Under the pieces are notes generated by a model. That model was not told where the DNA came from and ran no database searches. It was given only the letters and a program-made list of their open reading frames with translations. 64,000 nt of DNA, taken from NCBI RefSeq assembly GCF_001641755.2, contig NZ_LRFG02000002.1, positions 558,001 through 622,000 on the forward strand, read 5' to 3'. The position numbers and the translations under genes are program-made. Shown piece by piece: positions 10,306 to 59,282 of the stretch. Every line of letters starts with the position of its first letter. Positions within the stretch are counted from its first letter, which is position 1. Origin of the DNA: Microbulbifer flavimaris. Its GTDB lineage: Bacteria; Pseudomonadota; Gammaproteobacteria; Pseudomonadales; Cellvibrionaceae.

Positions 10306-11590
10306 TACCACCAATCCACTTCGCGGACTCTATCGCCAACCCGACTCCCGCTGGGTTTCCGGGTTGATCACTTTTACCGGCGTCAGCCTGCTGCTGATGC
10401 TGATCGGTTTCCACCTGCTGCCCAACGTGGGCCGCATCCAGACCATCTTCTATCTGACCCTGCTGCCCGCCACCCTGCTGTTACTGGGCTGGCGGCGGGA
10501 CTGGAGATTTCTGCGCTCCTGGCAGTTTGCCTGCTTTATCAGCGTACCCGTGGTGCTGGCGGTATCGACCCTCTGGGCAGACAACTCGACAGCCACGGTA
10601 GAGCGCGATGTCAGCTTCTACTTCAAGGTGCTGGCCTACTTCTTTCTCTTTTACTGCGCCCTCTACCTGGTGATGGAGCAGCGCGGCGAAGAGATGCTGC
10701 ACCGGTGGTTGCGCTGGCTGATCGCGCTCGGCACGGTTTCCTGTGCCGCTTCACTGGTGGTGTATGGCCTCGATGGTGGCTTCAGCAAGCTCTATCGTAT
10801 CGGCGGCATTTCCATGCAGAACAATATCGACAAGACGGCCATGCTGTACGGCTTTCACGTCATCTTCTGCTGCTACGGCCTGTCCCTGGACTCGCGTCGC
10901 TGGCGCGCACTATCGTGGCTGGGACTGGGCCTCGGCTGTGCCTATATCGTCGTTTCCCAGACCAAGATCCCCATCGTGATGGCCGCCTTTGCCATCTGCC
11001 TGGCGGCAGTCGTAAGTCGCTCCGTGGTGCTGCGTGTGCTGGTGCTGCTGGGGGCGGTCGCAGTCCTGCCTGCAGCCTATCTGCTGCTGTATGGCGACCT
11101 GCCGCTGTTGCACCGCAGTAATGCCTACTCAATCCGGCTGGAGCTGTGGGCCAAGAGCCTGGAGGGTTTCCTGCAGTCGCCGTGGATCGGCAGCGGCCTG
11201 GTGCACAAGCAGTTCATCGAGCTGCACACTGTACTGCCCCACCCACACAATTATTTGCTGGACGTGGCCCGCTTCGCTGGCCTGTTGGGAGTCGCGGCCT
11301 GCGTCTGGCAGGGTGTCGCCATCGCCTGGATCGGCCTGCGTAAAGACCAGCTGCTTAGCTGGGTGCCGGGAATGTACCTGATCTGGTTCGGCTTCGGCGT
11401 CATCGCCATGCTGATCTATGCCCAGCAACCGCTGGTAAAGCCCAGCTATATCTGGATCTTCTACTGGATCCCGCTGGCTGTACTGCTGGTGCGGGACCAG
11501 CTGACCGCCCCGAGAACAGAGACAGCGCGCAGCCAGGAGGCACGCCTGTCACAAACTAGCAATCACGCAACGTTAGAGTCGCACGGATGA
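10289..11590 (+). CDS. O-antigen ligase (WaaL)-like membrane protein
   Basis: A polytopic inner-membrane protein of about 11-12 hydrophobic segments (433 aa) of the O-antigen ligase/polymerase superfamily. Ligases move undecaprenyl-linked glycan onto the lipid A-core at the periplasmic face. The large periplasmic loop carries [13 protein letters not shown]; the HPHN..L motif is characteristic of WaaL/Wzy_C proteins. The gene overlaps its upstream glycosyltransferase by 17 bp and its TGA overlaps the ATG of ugd (ATGA). A polymerase (Wzy) cannot be excluded, but no flippase or chain-length regulator is nearby, which makes ligase more likely. Confidence 0.8.
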
Positions 11591-12927
11591 ATGTAACTGT
11601 ATTTGGCACCGGCTATGTAGGCCTGGTGCAAGCTGCTGTGCTGGCGGAGGCCGGCAACAAAGTGGTCTGCATCGATATCGATGAGGACAAGATCACCCGG
11701 CTGAAGCAGGGTCATATTCCCATCTATGAACCGGGCCTGGAGCCGATGGTGAGAGAGAGTATCGCTACCGGCAATCTCTCTTTCTCCACCGATGCCGCTG
11801 TTGGTGTGGAGCACGGGGAATTGATCTTTATCGCCGTGGGCACCCCGCCGGATGAGGATGGCTCTGCGGATCTGCGCCATGTACTCACCGTGGCTGATAC
11901 CATCGCCACCGACATGACAGTGAAGAAATACATCATCAACAAATCCACCGTTCCGGTGGGCACTGCCGACAAGGTGCGCGCGACTGTCACCAAACGCCTG
12001 ACGGAACGCGGCCTCGCTGAATTGCCCTTCGATGTGATCTCCAACCCGGAATTTCTCAAGGAAGGCTCGGCCGTGGCGGACTGCATGCGTCCCGACCGCA
12101 TCATTATCGGCACTTCGGAAAGAGAGTCCGAGCAGAAGCTGCGCCACCTCTATGCGCCCTTCAACCGCAACCATGAAAAAATCCTGGTGATGGATGTAAA
12201 GAGTGCGGAGCTGACCAAGTACGCCGCCAATTGCATGCTGGCCACCAAGATCAGCTTTATGAACGAGATGGCCAATATCGCCGACAAGGTGGGGGCCGAC
12301 ATCGAGGCAGTGCGCCGCGGCATCGGTTCCGATCCGCGCGTAGGCTACCAGTTTATCTATGCCGGCATCGGCTACGGTGGTTCCTGTTTCCCGAAGGACG
12401 TAAAGGCCCTGATCTCCTCAGCCGAACAGCTGGGCCTGTCGGCGGAAATACTCGCGGCGGTGGAATCCCGTAACGAGCAGCAGAAACACTACATGGCCGA
12501 GAAAGTGCTCGAGCATTTCGATGGCGACGTACAGGGTAAGGTGTTCGCCCTGTGGGGACTGTCCTTTAAGCCCAATACCGACGATATGCGCGAAGCCCCC
12601 AGCCGCGTGCTGATGGAACGCCTGTGGGAGAAGGGAGCCCGGGTGCGCGCCTTCGACCCGGAAGCCATGGAAGAGTGCCAGCGTATCTATGGCGACCGCG
12701 AAGACCTGGAACTCTGCGGCACCAAGGAAGCGGCCCTGAAGGGCGCCGACGCCCTGATCGTGGCCACCGAGTGGCAGCAGTTCAAAGCGCTGGATACCGC
12801 CGAAGTCAAAAACCTGCTGAGAGCACCGGTTGTCTTCGATGGCCGCAACCAGTACGAGCCGGAGGAAATGGAAGAGGCTGGCTTCTGCTACTACTGTGTT
12901 GGCCGGCCCGACACCAGCGCCTGCTGA
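11587..12927 (+). CDS. ugd: UDP-glucose 6-dehydrogenase
   Basis: Oxidises UDP-glucose twice with NAD to UDP-glucuronic acid, a precursor for acidic surface sugars or lipid A modification. The NAD-binding start is [25 protein letters not shown] and NKSTVPVGT follow, and the catalytic cysteine is C267 in [11 protein letters not shown]. The C-terminal UDP-binding domain has [19 protein letters not shown]. Length 446 aa is typical. A UDP-ManNAc or GDP-mannose dehydrogenase is less likely, since the Ugd-type GGSCFPKD and KPNTDD match best. It is last in the operon, followed by an intrinsic terminator. Confidence 0.93.
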
Positions 12928-12953: not shown

Positions 12954-12980
12954 AGCCCGGGTTTTTCCGGGCTTTTCTTT
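12954..12980 (+). terminator. Intrinsic terminator after ugd
   Basis: A 7-bp stem, AGCCCGG (12954-12960) with CCGGGCT (12967-12973), followed by TTTTCTTT. Confidence 0.8.
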
Positions 12981-13011
12981 ATCTGAATTTCTGAAGGGAT
13001 GGCCCGGTGGC

Positions 13012-13120
13012 GGCGAGGCGCCGGGGGCGACCTCTCGAAAACGCATGAATACATCCCTGTAGCTCCGCTGTGACATCCCTGTCACAGACGGTTTCGAAAG
13101 GTCGCCCCCGACACCCCGCC
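13012..13120 (-). repeat. Palindromic repeat, copy A, with two GGGA hairpins
   Basis: The outer arms 13023-13043 and 13089-13109 (GGGGGCGACC on each strand) pair almost perfectly and extend imperfectly to 13012/13120. Read on the minus strand, the core holds two hairpins. The first is CTGTGACA-GGGA-TGTCACAG (13068-13087, 8 bp). The second is TACA-GGGA-TGTA (13050-13061). The core is a second copy of the sequence at 13291-13357, in opposite orientation. UACAGGGAUGU matches 11 of 12 positions of the CsrA SELEX consensus RUACARGGAUGU when the preceding base is included. Confidence 0.85.
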
Positions 13121-13171
13121 TTCGATTCGAAATTGAGCGCACCACTCCACACCTGCAAGATGAAAACGCCA

Positions 13172-13226
13172 CAACCGAACCAGACCGGTAGAGATACAAC
13201 TCTCTGATCGGACCGGTCTGTAGTTG
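13172..13226. repeat. Palindrome C between the two repeat copies
   Basis: A 9-bp perfect arm CAGACCGGT (13181-13189) pairs with ACCGGTCTG (13212-13220). An inner AGAGA/TCTCT stem (13190-13205) and an outer CAAC/GTTG pair (13172-13175 and 13223-13226) add to it. It is unrelated in sequence to copies A and B but lies midway between them. Confidence 0.75.
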
Positions 13227-13270
13227 CTTGAAGAGTTTGCCCTTCGGAGCCACTGAACGATAAATCTAAG

Positions 13271-13379
13271 GCAGAGTACCGGGTGACTGGTTTCGAAACC
13301 GTCGGCGACAGGGACGTCGCCGCCGGAGCATACAGGGACGTACTTGTGCGTTTTCGAAACCAGTCACCCGGTGCTCAGC
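13271..13379 (+). repeat. Palindromic repeat, copy B, with two GGGA hairpins
   Basis: The outer arms 13279-13298 and 13352-13371 pair perfectly over 20 bp (CCGGGTGACTGG plus TTTCGAAA). The core holds CGGCGAC-AGGGAC-GTCGCCG (13303-13322) and TAC-AGGGAC-GTA (13331-13342). Against copy A (65 nt) the core has 9 substitutions and two 1-nt gaps. Four of the substitutions are two compensatory base-pair changes in the first hairpin (T-A to G-C, T-A to C-G). The outer arms differ completely from copy A yet remain self-complementary. Confidence 0.85.
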
Positions 13380-13490
13380 CGCCACAAAGCGCGCTTGCGG
13401 CCCCGGGGAGCAGTAGGAGATCTTCGAGGCTCAACCGCTGAGGAAGCGAGCCTTCCAATCCTGTTGAAACATCCTGCTCGGCACGCCTAA

Positions 13491-13518
13491 ACAAAAAAGC
13501 CCGGAAAATTTCCGGGCT
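13491..13518 (-). terminator. Intrinsic terminator after ilvE
   Basis: On the minus strand AGCCCGGAAA pairs with TTTCCGGGCT (13498-13518), followed by TTTTTT (13493-13498). Confidence 0.85.
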
Positions 13519-13540
13519 CTCGAATAGATCCAAACAATGA

Positions 13541-14497
13541 TCAGGCGATCTTCGCCGTCACCTCCGGCGGCTGATCGACTACATCGGTCAGCCACCCGCG
13601 ATGCGCCGCGCTGCGACCCTGCACCACGTCAAAGTACAGCTCCTGCAGGCGCCTGGTGATGGGACCGCGGCGGCCCGCTCCGATAGTGCGGCCGTCCAGC
13701 ATGCGGATCGGCAGTACCTCTGCTGCGGTGCCGGTGAAGAAGGCTTCATCGGCGATATAAACCTCGTCGCGGGTAATACGCTTTTCAACCACCTGATAGC
13801 CACACTCGTGCGCAAGCTCGATGACGGTGCTACGGGTGATACCGTCGAGGCAGGAAGTCAGCTCGGGGGTATAGATCACGCCGTCGCTGACGATAAAGAC
13901 ATTCTCGCCACTGCCCTCGGCCACGTAGCCCTCGGGATCCAGCAGCAATGCCTCTTCACAGCCGTTGCGGATGGCCTCCTGCAGCGCCAGCATCGAGTTG
14001 ATGTAATTGCCGTTGGCCTTGGCCTTGCACATGCTGATATTCACATGGTGGCGGGTGTAGGAGGAGGTATTTACCTTAATGCCCAGCTCCCGTGCTTCGG
14101 GGGTCATGTAGCTGGGCCACTCCCAGGCGGCCACGATTACATGGGTCTGCAGGGAATCGGCGCGCAGGCCCATACCCTCAGAACCGTAGAAGACCATCGG
14201 CCGCAGATAGGCTTCGCTCAGGTTATTCTCCCGCACCACCATGCGCTGTGCCTCGTTGAGGGTCTCAGCGTCATAGGGCATGGACATGTTCATGATCTTG
14301 GCGGAGCGAAACAGGCGCCGGGTGTGATCGTGGAGACGAAAGATACTGGCGCCGGCGTCTGTCTCGTAGGCGCGTACCCCCTCAAACACCCCCATCCCGT
14401 AATGCAGGGTGTGGGTCAGTACGTGAACGCGGGCATCCCGCCAGGGAACCAGCTCGCCATCAAACCAGATAACGCCGTCGCGATCGGCAAAAGACAT
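13541..14497 (-). CDS. ilvE: Branched-chain amino acid aminotransferase
   Basis: A class IV PLP aminotransferase that makes Val, Ile and Leu from their 2-keto acids with glutamate. The PLP lysine is K160 in CKAKANGNYINSM, the same position as in E. coli IlvE. GYVAEGSGENVF (about residues 197-208) and the phosphate-binding TGTAAEVLPI near 255 are typical. At 318 aa it is slightly longer than the E. coli enzyme. A good AGGAG lies before the ATG. It follows glnE by 83 bp on the same strand, the order seen in Pseudomonas. It works with ilvD and ilvA, which are elsewhere in this window. Confidence 0.95.
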   Translation of the reverse strand: MSFADRDGVIWFDGELVPWRDARVHVLTHTLHYGMGVFEGVRAYETDAGASIFRLHDHTRRLFRSAKIMNMSMPYDAETLNEAQRMVVRENNLSEAYLRPMVFYGSEGMGLRADSLQTHVIVAAWEWPSYMTPEARELGIKVNTSSYTRHHVNISMCKAKANGNYINSMLALQEAIRNGCEEALLLDPEGYVAEGSGENVFIVSDGVIYTPELTSCLDGITRSTVIELAHECGYQVVEKRITRDEVYIADEAFFTGTAAEVLPIRMLDGRTIGAGRRGPITRRLQELYFDVVQGRSAAHRGWLTDVVDQPPEVTAKIA

Positions 14498-59096: not shown

Positions 59097-59102
59097 GCGT
59101 TT

Positions 59103-59282
59103 AAGCCCTGAGGTGTTGGCCAGTTGACAATGTCCTGAGCCGATACTTTTACCCTGGAGGTTTCCAGCGGATGTTGGTGTGCAAGTCCGCCATGCAGCGG
59201 AAAGCCTTATGCATTCCGGAGACCACCACCTTGAACTTAACGGTTCAAGGCTACGTCATCAGCCGCACGCTCGGGGTGTCCT
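59103..59282 (+). ncRNA. ssrS: 6S RNA
   Basis: About 180 nt between zapA and fau, exactly the E. coli location of ssrS. Conserved 6S blocks are readable: the 5' CCCTGAGGTGTT, GTCCTGAGCCGATAC, the 3' arm CCTTGAACTTAACGGTTCAAGG and CGCTCGGGGTGTCC. The last pairs with the 5' end to close the structure. 6S RNA mimics an open promoter and binds the sigma-70 RNA polymerase in stationary phase. The ends are estimated from the pairing. Confidence 0.9.

Follow-up and report, generated by a model that had tools for sequence, protein, structure and literature searches.

The window analysed here, a stretch of 64,000 nucleotides of Microbulbifer DNA, contains the convergent genes ugd, which encodes a nucleotide sugar dehydrogenase, and ilvE, which encodes a branched-chain transaminase. 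The gap between them (window 12980-13487), past a terminator-like hairpin belonging to each gene, holds two copies of a structured element on opposite strands, at 13007-13125 (minus strand) and 13265-13385 (plus strand) when their short feet are included. We refer to these as copies A and B. In each, a helix (P1) encloses two hairpins (P2 and P3), and the features of the locus are listed below. The ugd protein is 95% identical to the ugd protein of M. guangxiensis.

11587-12927: ugd, nucleotide sugar dehydrogenase
12954-12980, plus strand: terminator-like hairpin 3' of ugd, outside the element, seen from the sequence and its inverted-repeat partner
13007-13125, minus strand: copy A with feet; covariance model match at 13014-13118 (G000:C2:571014-571118, minus), 103 bits
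13007-13014, minus strand: copy A, 3' foot GCCGCCAC
13014-13040, minus strand: copy A, 3' arm of P1, 27 nt
13050-13061, minus strand: copy A, P3 hairpin, UAC-AGGGAU-GUA
13065-13091, minus strand: copy A, P2 hairpin, loop AGGGAU at 13075-13080, 3' side one base short
13092-13118, minus strand: copy A, 5' arm of P1, 27 nt
13118-13125, minus strand: copy A, 5' foot TCGAAGGC
13126-13264: spacer between copies A and B
13265-13385, plus strand: copy B with feet; covariance model match at 13272-13378 (G000:C2:571272-571378, plus), 111 bits
13265-13272, plus strand: copy B, 5' foot TCTAAGGC
13272-13298, plus strand: copy B, 5' arm of P1
13299-13326, plus strand: copy B, P2 hairpin, loop AGGGAC at 13310-13315
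13331-13342, plus strand: copy B, P3 hairpin, UAC-AGGGAC-GUA
13352-13378, plus strand: copy B, 3' arm of P1
13378-13385, plus strand: copy B, 3' foot GCCGCCAC
13491-13521, minus strand: terminator-like hairpin 3' of ilvE, outside the element, seen from the sequence and an inverted repeat
13541-14497, minus strand: ilvE, branched-chain transaminase

The original prediction for this locus described two inverted copies of a structured repeat. Sequence, inverted repeats and folding all bear this out, and the repeat is far beyond chance, since TACAGGGAYGTA occurs 25 times in the 3.64-Mb Microbulbifer genome and its reversed control not once. The 65-nt cores of the two copies are indeed alike, with 55 of 65 positions identical on realignment where 56 had been given. 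The two-sided compensatory change in P2 between copies A and B is real, and P3 agrees, as claimed, with the CsrA SELEX consensus RUACARGGAUGU (PMC7652899) at 11 of 12 positions. Self-complementary outer arms are present (84% complementarity in copy A, 13012-13043/13089-13120, and 91% in copy B, 13270-13301/13349-13380), but P1 spans about 27 bp and not about 20, and the element reaches beyond the predicted box of 13012-13379. The arms had also been called unrelated between copies; this holds between diverged copies only, and across the family they keep their pairing through two-sided changes.

The GGA-carrying strands fold with a z-score of -10.6 in both copies; the opposite strands reach -7.9 and -9.2, and in each case none of 200 shuffles folded as well. 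The sole Rfam match in the window at gathering scores is a 6S RNA (RF00013) at 59102-59281 on the plus strand, with 111 bits.

Structure of the element

The element is about 120 nt long and consists of a P1 outer helix of 27 bp that meets the P2 and P3 hairpins at a three-way junction. Read on its GGA strand, a typical copy comprises the foot GCGAAGGC, a P1 arm of 27 nt, a P2 hairpin of 10-11 bp with the hexaloop ANGGAX, the linker AGC, the P3 hairpin UAC-ANGGAX-GUA, the tail UUCAC.GCGU, the second P1 arm and the foot GCCGCCAC. The feet GCGAAGGC...GCCGCCAC carry recurring mismatches, and a tandem U.G/G.U pair is frequent in outer P1 (columns 5-6). A first run of RNAalifold on a plain MAFFT alignment gave almost no structure, because the arm sequences are not conserved; an anchored alignment resolved it. 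A further stem outside the feet was considered and rejected: the duplex energies of a copy's own flanks equalled those of cross-paired controls, and 2 of 42 copies were under the 5% level.

Copies in the genome and in other taxa

A covariance-model search of the genome and its relatives, as the original prediction had proposed, found further copies and confirmed a dispersed repeat. The model, built from seven copies, matched 43 distinct places at 34 sites in the own genome, one of them weak. A rescan of the fetched sites at E ≤ 1e-6 also gave 43 copies, at 33 sites, with one copy new and the weak one not recovered; the count of at least 43 is a lower bound, as the best 150 of 897 candidates were scored. 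The weak 44th match (C8:44819, 32 bits, E = 0.002) lies outside these 43 copies at 33 sites and inside the set of 99 sites used below.

Opposite-strand pairs, 40-153 bp apart, occur at 10 of the own sites, where about 0.2 such neighbours would be expected by chance. The 99-site set joins the own sites to 60 loci from relatives, which are the best-scoring among the matches listed and therefore a non-random sample leaning to one subtype. It holds 25 pairs, in which the GGA strands point outward (-/+) in 22 and inward (+/-) in three, with none on the same strand.

The range extends well beyond this genome. Among the relatives, 26 of 38 genomes match, the own genome included, and the number of matches reaches at least 103 (the best 103 candidates per genome being scored), as in G005, where the matches are of much the same score. 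When the best 9-10 candidates per genome were scored, matches were found in 68 of 369 gammaproteobacterial genomes, representing 61 of 272 genera, and in 27 of 398 genomes of a phylum-wide sample, all 27 within the own class, although the listing does not give what share of that sample lies outside the class. Collections of plasmids, phages and viruses, queried with one core or one pattern, gave no match.

Covariation and selection on one strand

The pairing is maintained by extensive two-sided change. In 42 copies from the own genome, 41 of the 43 pairs change on both sides, with a covariation score of 0.858 against at most 0.163 for slid controls; in 33 cross-genus copies, which are the best hits per genome and hence lean to the model, the corresponding figures are 40 of 43 pairs and 0.973 against at most 0.156. 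Of five measures on which the cross-genus set was also compared with 500 shuffles, four were matched by no shuffle and one (further pair types) by 48. Across genera, the sequence of P1 is almost free to vary, yet 98% of its cells are paired.

The P1 cells of the 42 own copies comprise 964 Watson-Crick pairs, 83 G.U, 5 A.C and 40 others. Copies found with the covariance model are biased towards paired stems; the 25 copies found by a 12-mer alone form a less biased set, and they contain 49 G.U against one A.C. Some of the G.U pairs, in two P1 columns, are inherited. Once the G.U-rich columns are excluded, G.U still exceeds A.C by 35:4 among the own-genome copies and by 25:1 in the genus set (41 of 42 and 80 of 81 copies, respectively, one copy longer than 112 nt being omitted per set). 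With copies longer than 112 nt again left out, the ratio of G.U to A.C is 53:1 in copies that are sense to their tandem neighbours and 46:4 in antisense ones.

We read the large excess of G.U over A.C as the mark of selection on the folded GGA-carrying strand, more likely in the form of RNA than of single-stranded DNA. Since the bias is alike in sense and antisense copies, transcription from neighbouring genes does not explain it. Selection on a single-stranded DNA hairpin could likewise favour G.T over A.C, which is a point against the RNA reading.

The loops as probable CsrA-type sites

According to NMR work on RsmE, the high-affinity site is an ANGGAX hexaloop that sits immediately on a stem and from which N and X are flipped out; sites without N are weaker (PMC4005645). 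Among the 33 copies from 29 genomes, loop 2 is ANGGAX in all 33 and loop 1 in 31, the other two being a pentaloop AGGAU and a GGGGAU. The closing pair is C-G at both loops in all 33, and N and X take several bases. Of 81 copies from the genus, 79 retain A(N)GGA in loop 1 and likewise 79 in loop 2, and loop 1 reads A(N)GGAX in 79; the site is lost in two copies per loop, for example as ATAGAC in M. guangxiensis copy A. Two own-genome copies have an AGGGG loop, some copies have AGGAC or AGGAU pentaloops, and G-C replaces C-G as the closing pair in 12 of the 41 P2 loops of the own genome. With the exception of the pentaloops and G-C closures, the loops agree with the high-affinity consensus of an ANGGAX hexaloop on a stem closed by C-G (PMC4005645).

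The distance from GGA to GGA could be measured in 77 of the 81 copies; it is 21 nt in 58 of them and 20 nt in the other 19, inside the range of 10-63 nt over which CsrA bridges sites (PMC7652899). A model with masked loops recovered 20 own-genome copies, each found before and each carrying A(N)GGA in its two loops; this control is limited, covering 20 of 43 copies, mostly of one subtype, with the best 150 of 1425 candidates scored.

By their pattern, the loops would be CsrA sites, an assignment that the comparison between copies strongly supports, and we infer from it that the element binds CsrA. The original prediction had seen CsrA/RsmA-type loops in the two window copies, and the family as a whole points the same way, with A-N-GGA-X loops, mostly C-G closing pairs, freely varying stems and apparent selection on the GGA strand. 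The pattern that it had named as telling against the idea, in which the arms are conserved and the loop GGA is not, is excluded by the conservation of the loops across copies.

Mobility and movement

In G005, most of the 20 fetched copies make up the interior of a MITE about 213 bp long, whose ends, of 20 bp, are GGAACCTCTGATTAATTCGC (for example, L205:442-654). An exact 4-bp duplication, mostly YTAR, accompanies 14 of the 20 copies examined, and G005 is the only genome in which we found terminal inverted repeats together with a short target duplication. We take these ends and duplications to suit the IS5 family. Around the own-genome sites generally, candidate terminal inverted repeats proved to be only chance or terminator matches. 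Mobilisation there by a RAYT was also rejected, as PF01797 (Y1 transposase) had no match in the own genome, leaving the element without the transposase of a REP/RAYT system.

We aligned 18 of the MITE copies, omitting L200 and L207 of the 20 loci because one end matched poorly. Variation is seen in 68 of the 107 flank columns but in only 4 of the 52 core columns (p = 5e-12), and three of the four variable core columns are loop N or X positions. P1 varies at 16 of 54 columns without a broken pair, through 20 two-sided and 5 one-sided changes that all preserve pairing. The differences between MITE copies within P1 lie in its middle, as matched two-sided changes. Transposition should need the ends only, and the core has therefore probably been kept for another reason.

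Two loci show the element repeated on one strand. At L214 in G005, a further head-to-tail element lies within about 270 nt upstream of a MITE copy, which suggests that the unit can also duplicate in tandem. In G580, a tandem array at L316:1788-3152 holds about six elements in the same orientation, five matching the model in full and one in part, with a period of 227 bp; its units also carry a REP-like palindrome, TATCGCGGCTGAAGCCGCTCCTACA, and about twelve ANGGA sites would fall on one possible transcript.

The ugd-ilvE junction has no copy in three other Microbulbifer genomes (L120-L122), of which L121 and L122 have one clear terminator-like hairpin there. In M. guangxiensis, the junction (L119:3915-4288) has a pair, apparently swapped relative to window 13007-13385. 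Own copy A is identical to M. guangxiensis copy B at 111 of 123 columns, on the opposite strand, compared with 89 of 127 for its copy A. The assignment of own copy B is weak (98 of 125 columns to M. guangxiensis A and 99 of 130 to B, with scores of 67.5 and 64.0); a 63-nt stretch of it is 95% identical to M. guangxiensis, on the opposite strand. The spacers of the two pairs gave no blastn match to each other. Because the pair looks swapped, the comparison suggests inversion or exchange between its copies.

Gene context, promoters and csrA

A coding explanation was set aside, as only 3 of the 99 sites overlap an ORF called by our home-made gene caller. Sites between divergent genes likewise number 3 of 99. 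Single copies between tandem genes show no preference of orientation, with 28 co-directional and 26 anti-directional, and these 54 lie at a median of 51 nt from the upstream stop codon, a figure given without a genome-wide baseline. In keeping with the earlier remark that no convincing promoter lies inside the element, the regions upstream of the 42 own copies showed neither a clear -10 enrichment nor an AT peak, and the 23 pair spacers of the genus, including that of the window, shared no 7-mer beyond the level of shuffles.

The own genome has one csrA, beside an ORF that is presumably aspartate kinase-like. Among the 68 element-bearing genomes, csrA is present in 63. Among well-assembled genomes, it occurs in 56 of the 57 that carry the element and in 224 of the 257 that do not (p = 0.01). 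All these counts include the own genome, were read by hand from tables and are uncorrected for phylogeny. The main counter-example is G233 (98% complete, in 270 contigs), with at least eight copies and no detectable csrA; four drafts that are 67-88% complete (G045, G106, G137 and G380) also have the element and no detectable csrA.

Interpretation

We interpret the family as a divergent, dispersed and mobilisable variant of the TwoAYGGAY type of CsrA-binding RNA, with dual loops for one dimer, and give this reading a probability of roughly two in three. The GGA strand of each copy would encode a three-way-junction RNA, with P1 as the closing helix and P2 and P3 as two docking hairpins that would present their ANGGAX hexaloops to one CsrA/RsmA dimer. 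The further steps are less certain. Copies may be transcribed by read-through from either side, which we favour because their orientation is neutral and no promoter is visible, and the resulting RNA might act as a distributed CsrA buffer or decoy. Locally, it could provide a stable, CsrA-protected 3' or inter-cistronic RNA. Of the original prediction, the dispersed repeat is upheld and the CsrA-like loops are strongly supported. A sponge is a possible role only; against a simple one stand the failure to find a promoter, the lack of sense bias and a near-complete genome that has copies and no detectable csrA.

The main rival for the pairing is mobility at the level of DNA, with a REP/REPIN-like hairpin that a transposase would recognise as a folded single strand, so that loops and pairing would be conserved for mobility and not for CsrA. 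Dispersed and almost entirely intergenic sites, recurring feet, opposite-strand doublets of fixed polarity, the absence of a copy at the ugd-ilvE junction of three other Microbulbifer genomes and the REP-like palindrome in the G580 array would all be at home in such a system. We nevertheless consider it unlikely: the own genome lacks a PF01797 transposase, mobility in G005 is explained by the MITE ends, which should not need the core, yet it is the core that is conserved, and loops that vary at N and X alone are a specific mark of the CsrA consensus.

The position of single copies shortly after stop codons, and their rarity between divergent genes, would also suit generic structured 3' ends, that is, stable stem-loops that block exonucleases or terminate transcription and whose GGA loops are incidental. 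This would not predict a near-invariant ANGGA in two loops with free flipped-out bases; roughly every second single copy between tandem genes is antisense, the window copies sit beyond terminator-like hairpins that ugd and ilvE already have, and we regard the explanation as improbable. We think it very improbable that the pairs are divergent sRNA genes served by a promoter in the spacer: the outward direction of the GGA strands in 22 of 25 pairs is what such genes would show, but the spacers have no shared motif, and upstream of the own copies a clear -10 signal and an AT peak are both absent.

The current view of CsrA control is built on a small number of decoy RNAs. If the CsrA-binding reading is true, the element, at two consensus-like sites per copy and with 43 copies or more here and about 100 in some relatives, would form a large and unrecorded sink for CsrA; transposition could place ready-made CsrA sites next to genes. 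A CsrA role for a dispersed repeat would also become directly testable. More tentatively, and with some doubt on our part, each gammaproteobacterial genome with the element might hold dual-site CsrA decoys that are mobilisable and number from tens to about a hundred or more, as transposon cargo selected as RNA. Transcription of intergenic regions would then set the level of free CsrA, and a global regulator would have a distributed, genome-wide buffer spread by mobile DNA.

Comparison with known systems

The links to TwoAYGGAY RNA and to mobile DNA were absent from the original prediction and are added here. TwoAYGGAY (RF01731) is a probable RNA of the human gut, gammaproteobacteria and Clostridiales (Weinberg 2010, PMC2864571), for which CsrA binding was proposed by Gardner and Eldai (PMC4333381), and it shares Rfam clan CL00106 with CsrC and RsmZ. 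Like the element, it has an outer stem, described as poorly conserved, around two GGA-loop hairpins. Its loops are AYGGAY, whereas the element has two ANGGAN loops in a three-way junction with a second loop base that is mostly G; the element is also multi-copy (at least 43 in the own genome) and MITE-borne in one relative, while the available part of the TwoAYGGAY description mentions no dispersal. The RF01731 model does not match the window copies at E ≤ 10, and it matches one of 27 cross-genus loci scanned (of 29; E ≤ 1 or 0.5), below its gathering score. That one match, a copy in an AT-rich gammaproteobacterium (L230), aligns to the whole model on the same strand with 38.3 bits, the gathering score being 43.

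The CsrB, CsrC and RsmX/Y/Z decoys (CL00106) resemble the element in having GGA hairpin loops spaced for dimer bridging. Unlike CsrB/RsmZ-type decoys, the element has two sites per unit rather than many, is dispersed, has no promoter of its own that we found and is enclosed by a 27-bp stem. In the own genome, the best match to the RsmZ model is 27.1 bits, under the threshold of 44. The 3' part of the CsrC model gives sub-threshold matches of 25-29 bits at L310:1598-1643 (own C5, both strands) and L222:1027-1058, perhaps through the model's terminator region only.

REP, BIME and REPIN sequences (PMC2817692) are likewise intergenic, dispersed palindromes, often in inverted doublets. They are linked to RAYTs, in contrast to the element, a 120-nt three-way junction in a genome without a Y1 transposase; in G580, the element coexists with a REP-like palindrome.

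The model of Ysr224 (RF02770), a Yersinia sRNA that a review places among the 20 most prevalent bacterial sRNAs (PMC9029176), matches the same elements, with 28.3 bits in the window and 38 at best elsewhere, below its gathering score of 70. Unlike the element, it reads the strand opposite GGA, and did so in all matches compared, six of the nine in one scan not being among them. In our reading, the Ysr224 model would describe an enterobacterial copy from the other strand.

In the open-licence literature searched, we found no paper that links such a dispersed repeat to CsrA, and the form described here, scattered in many copies and carried by a MITE in one species, seems to be unrecorded there. 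The kind of element is already known from TwoAYGGAY and the Csr decoys; the present analysis contributes its anatomy, covariation, strand-specific selection, loop pattern, dispersal and carriage by a MITE in one species. If our reading is true, TwoAYGGAY and Ysr224 would be parts of one repeat family, with Ysr224 apparently on the other strand.
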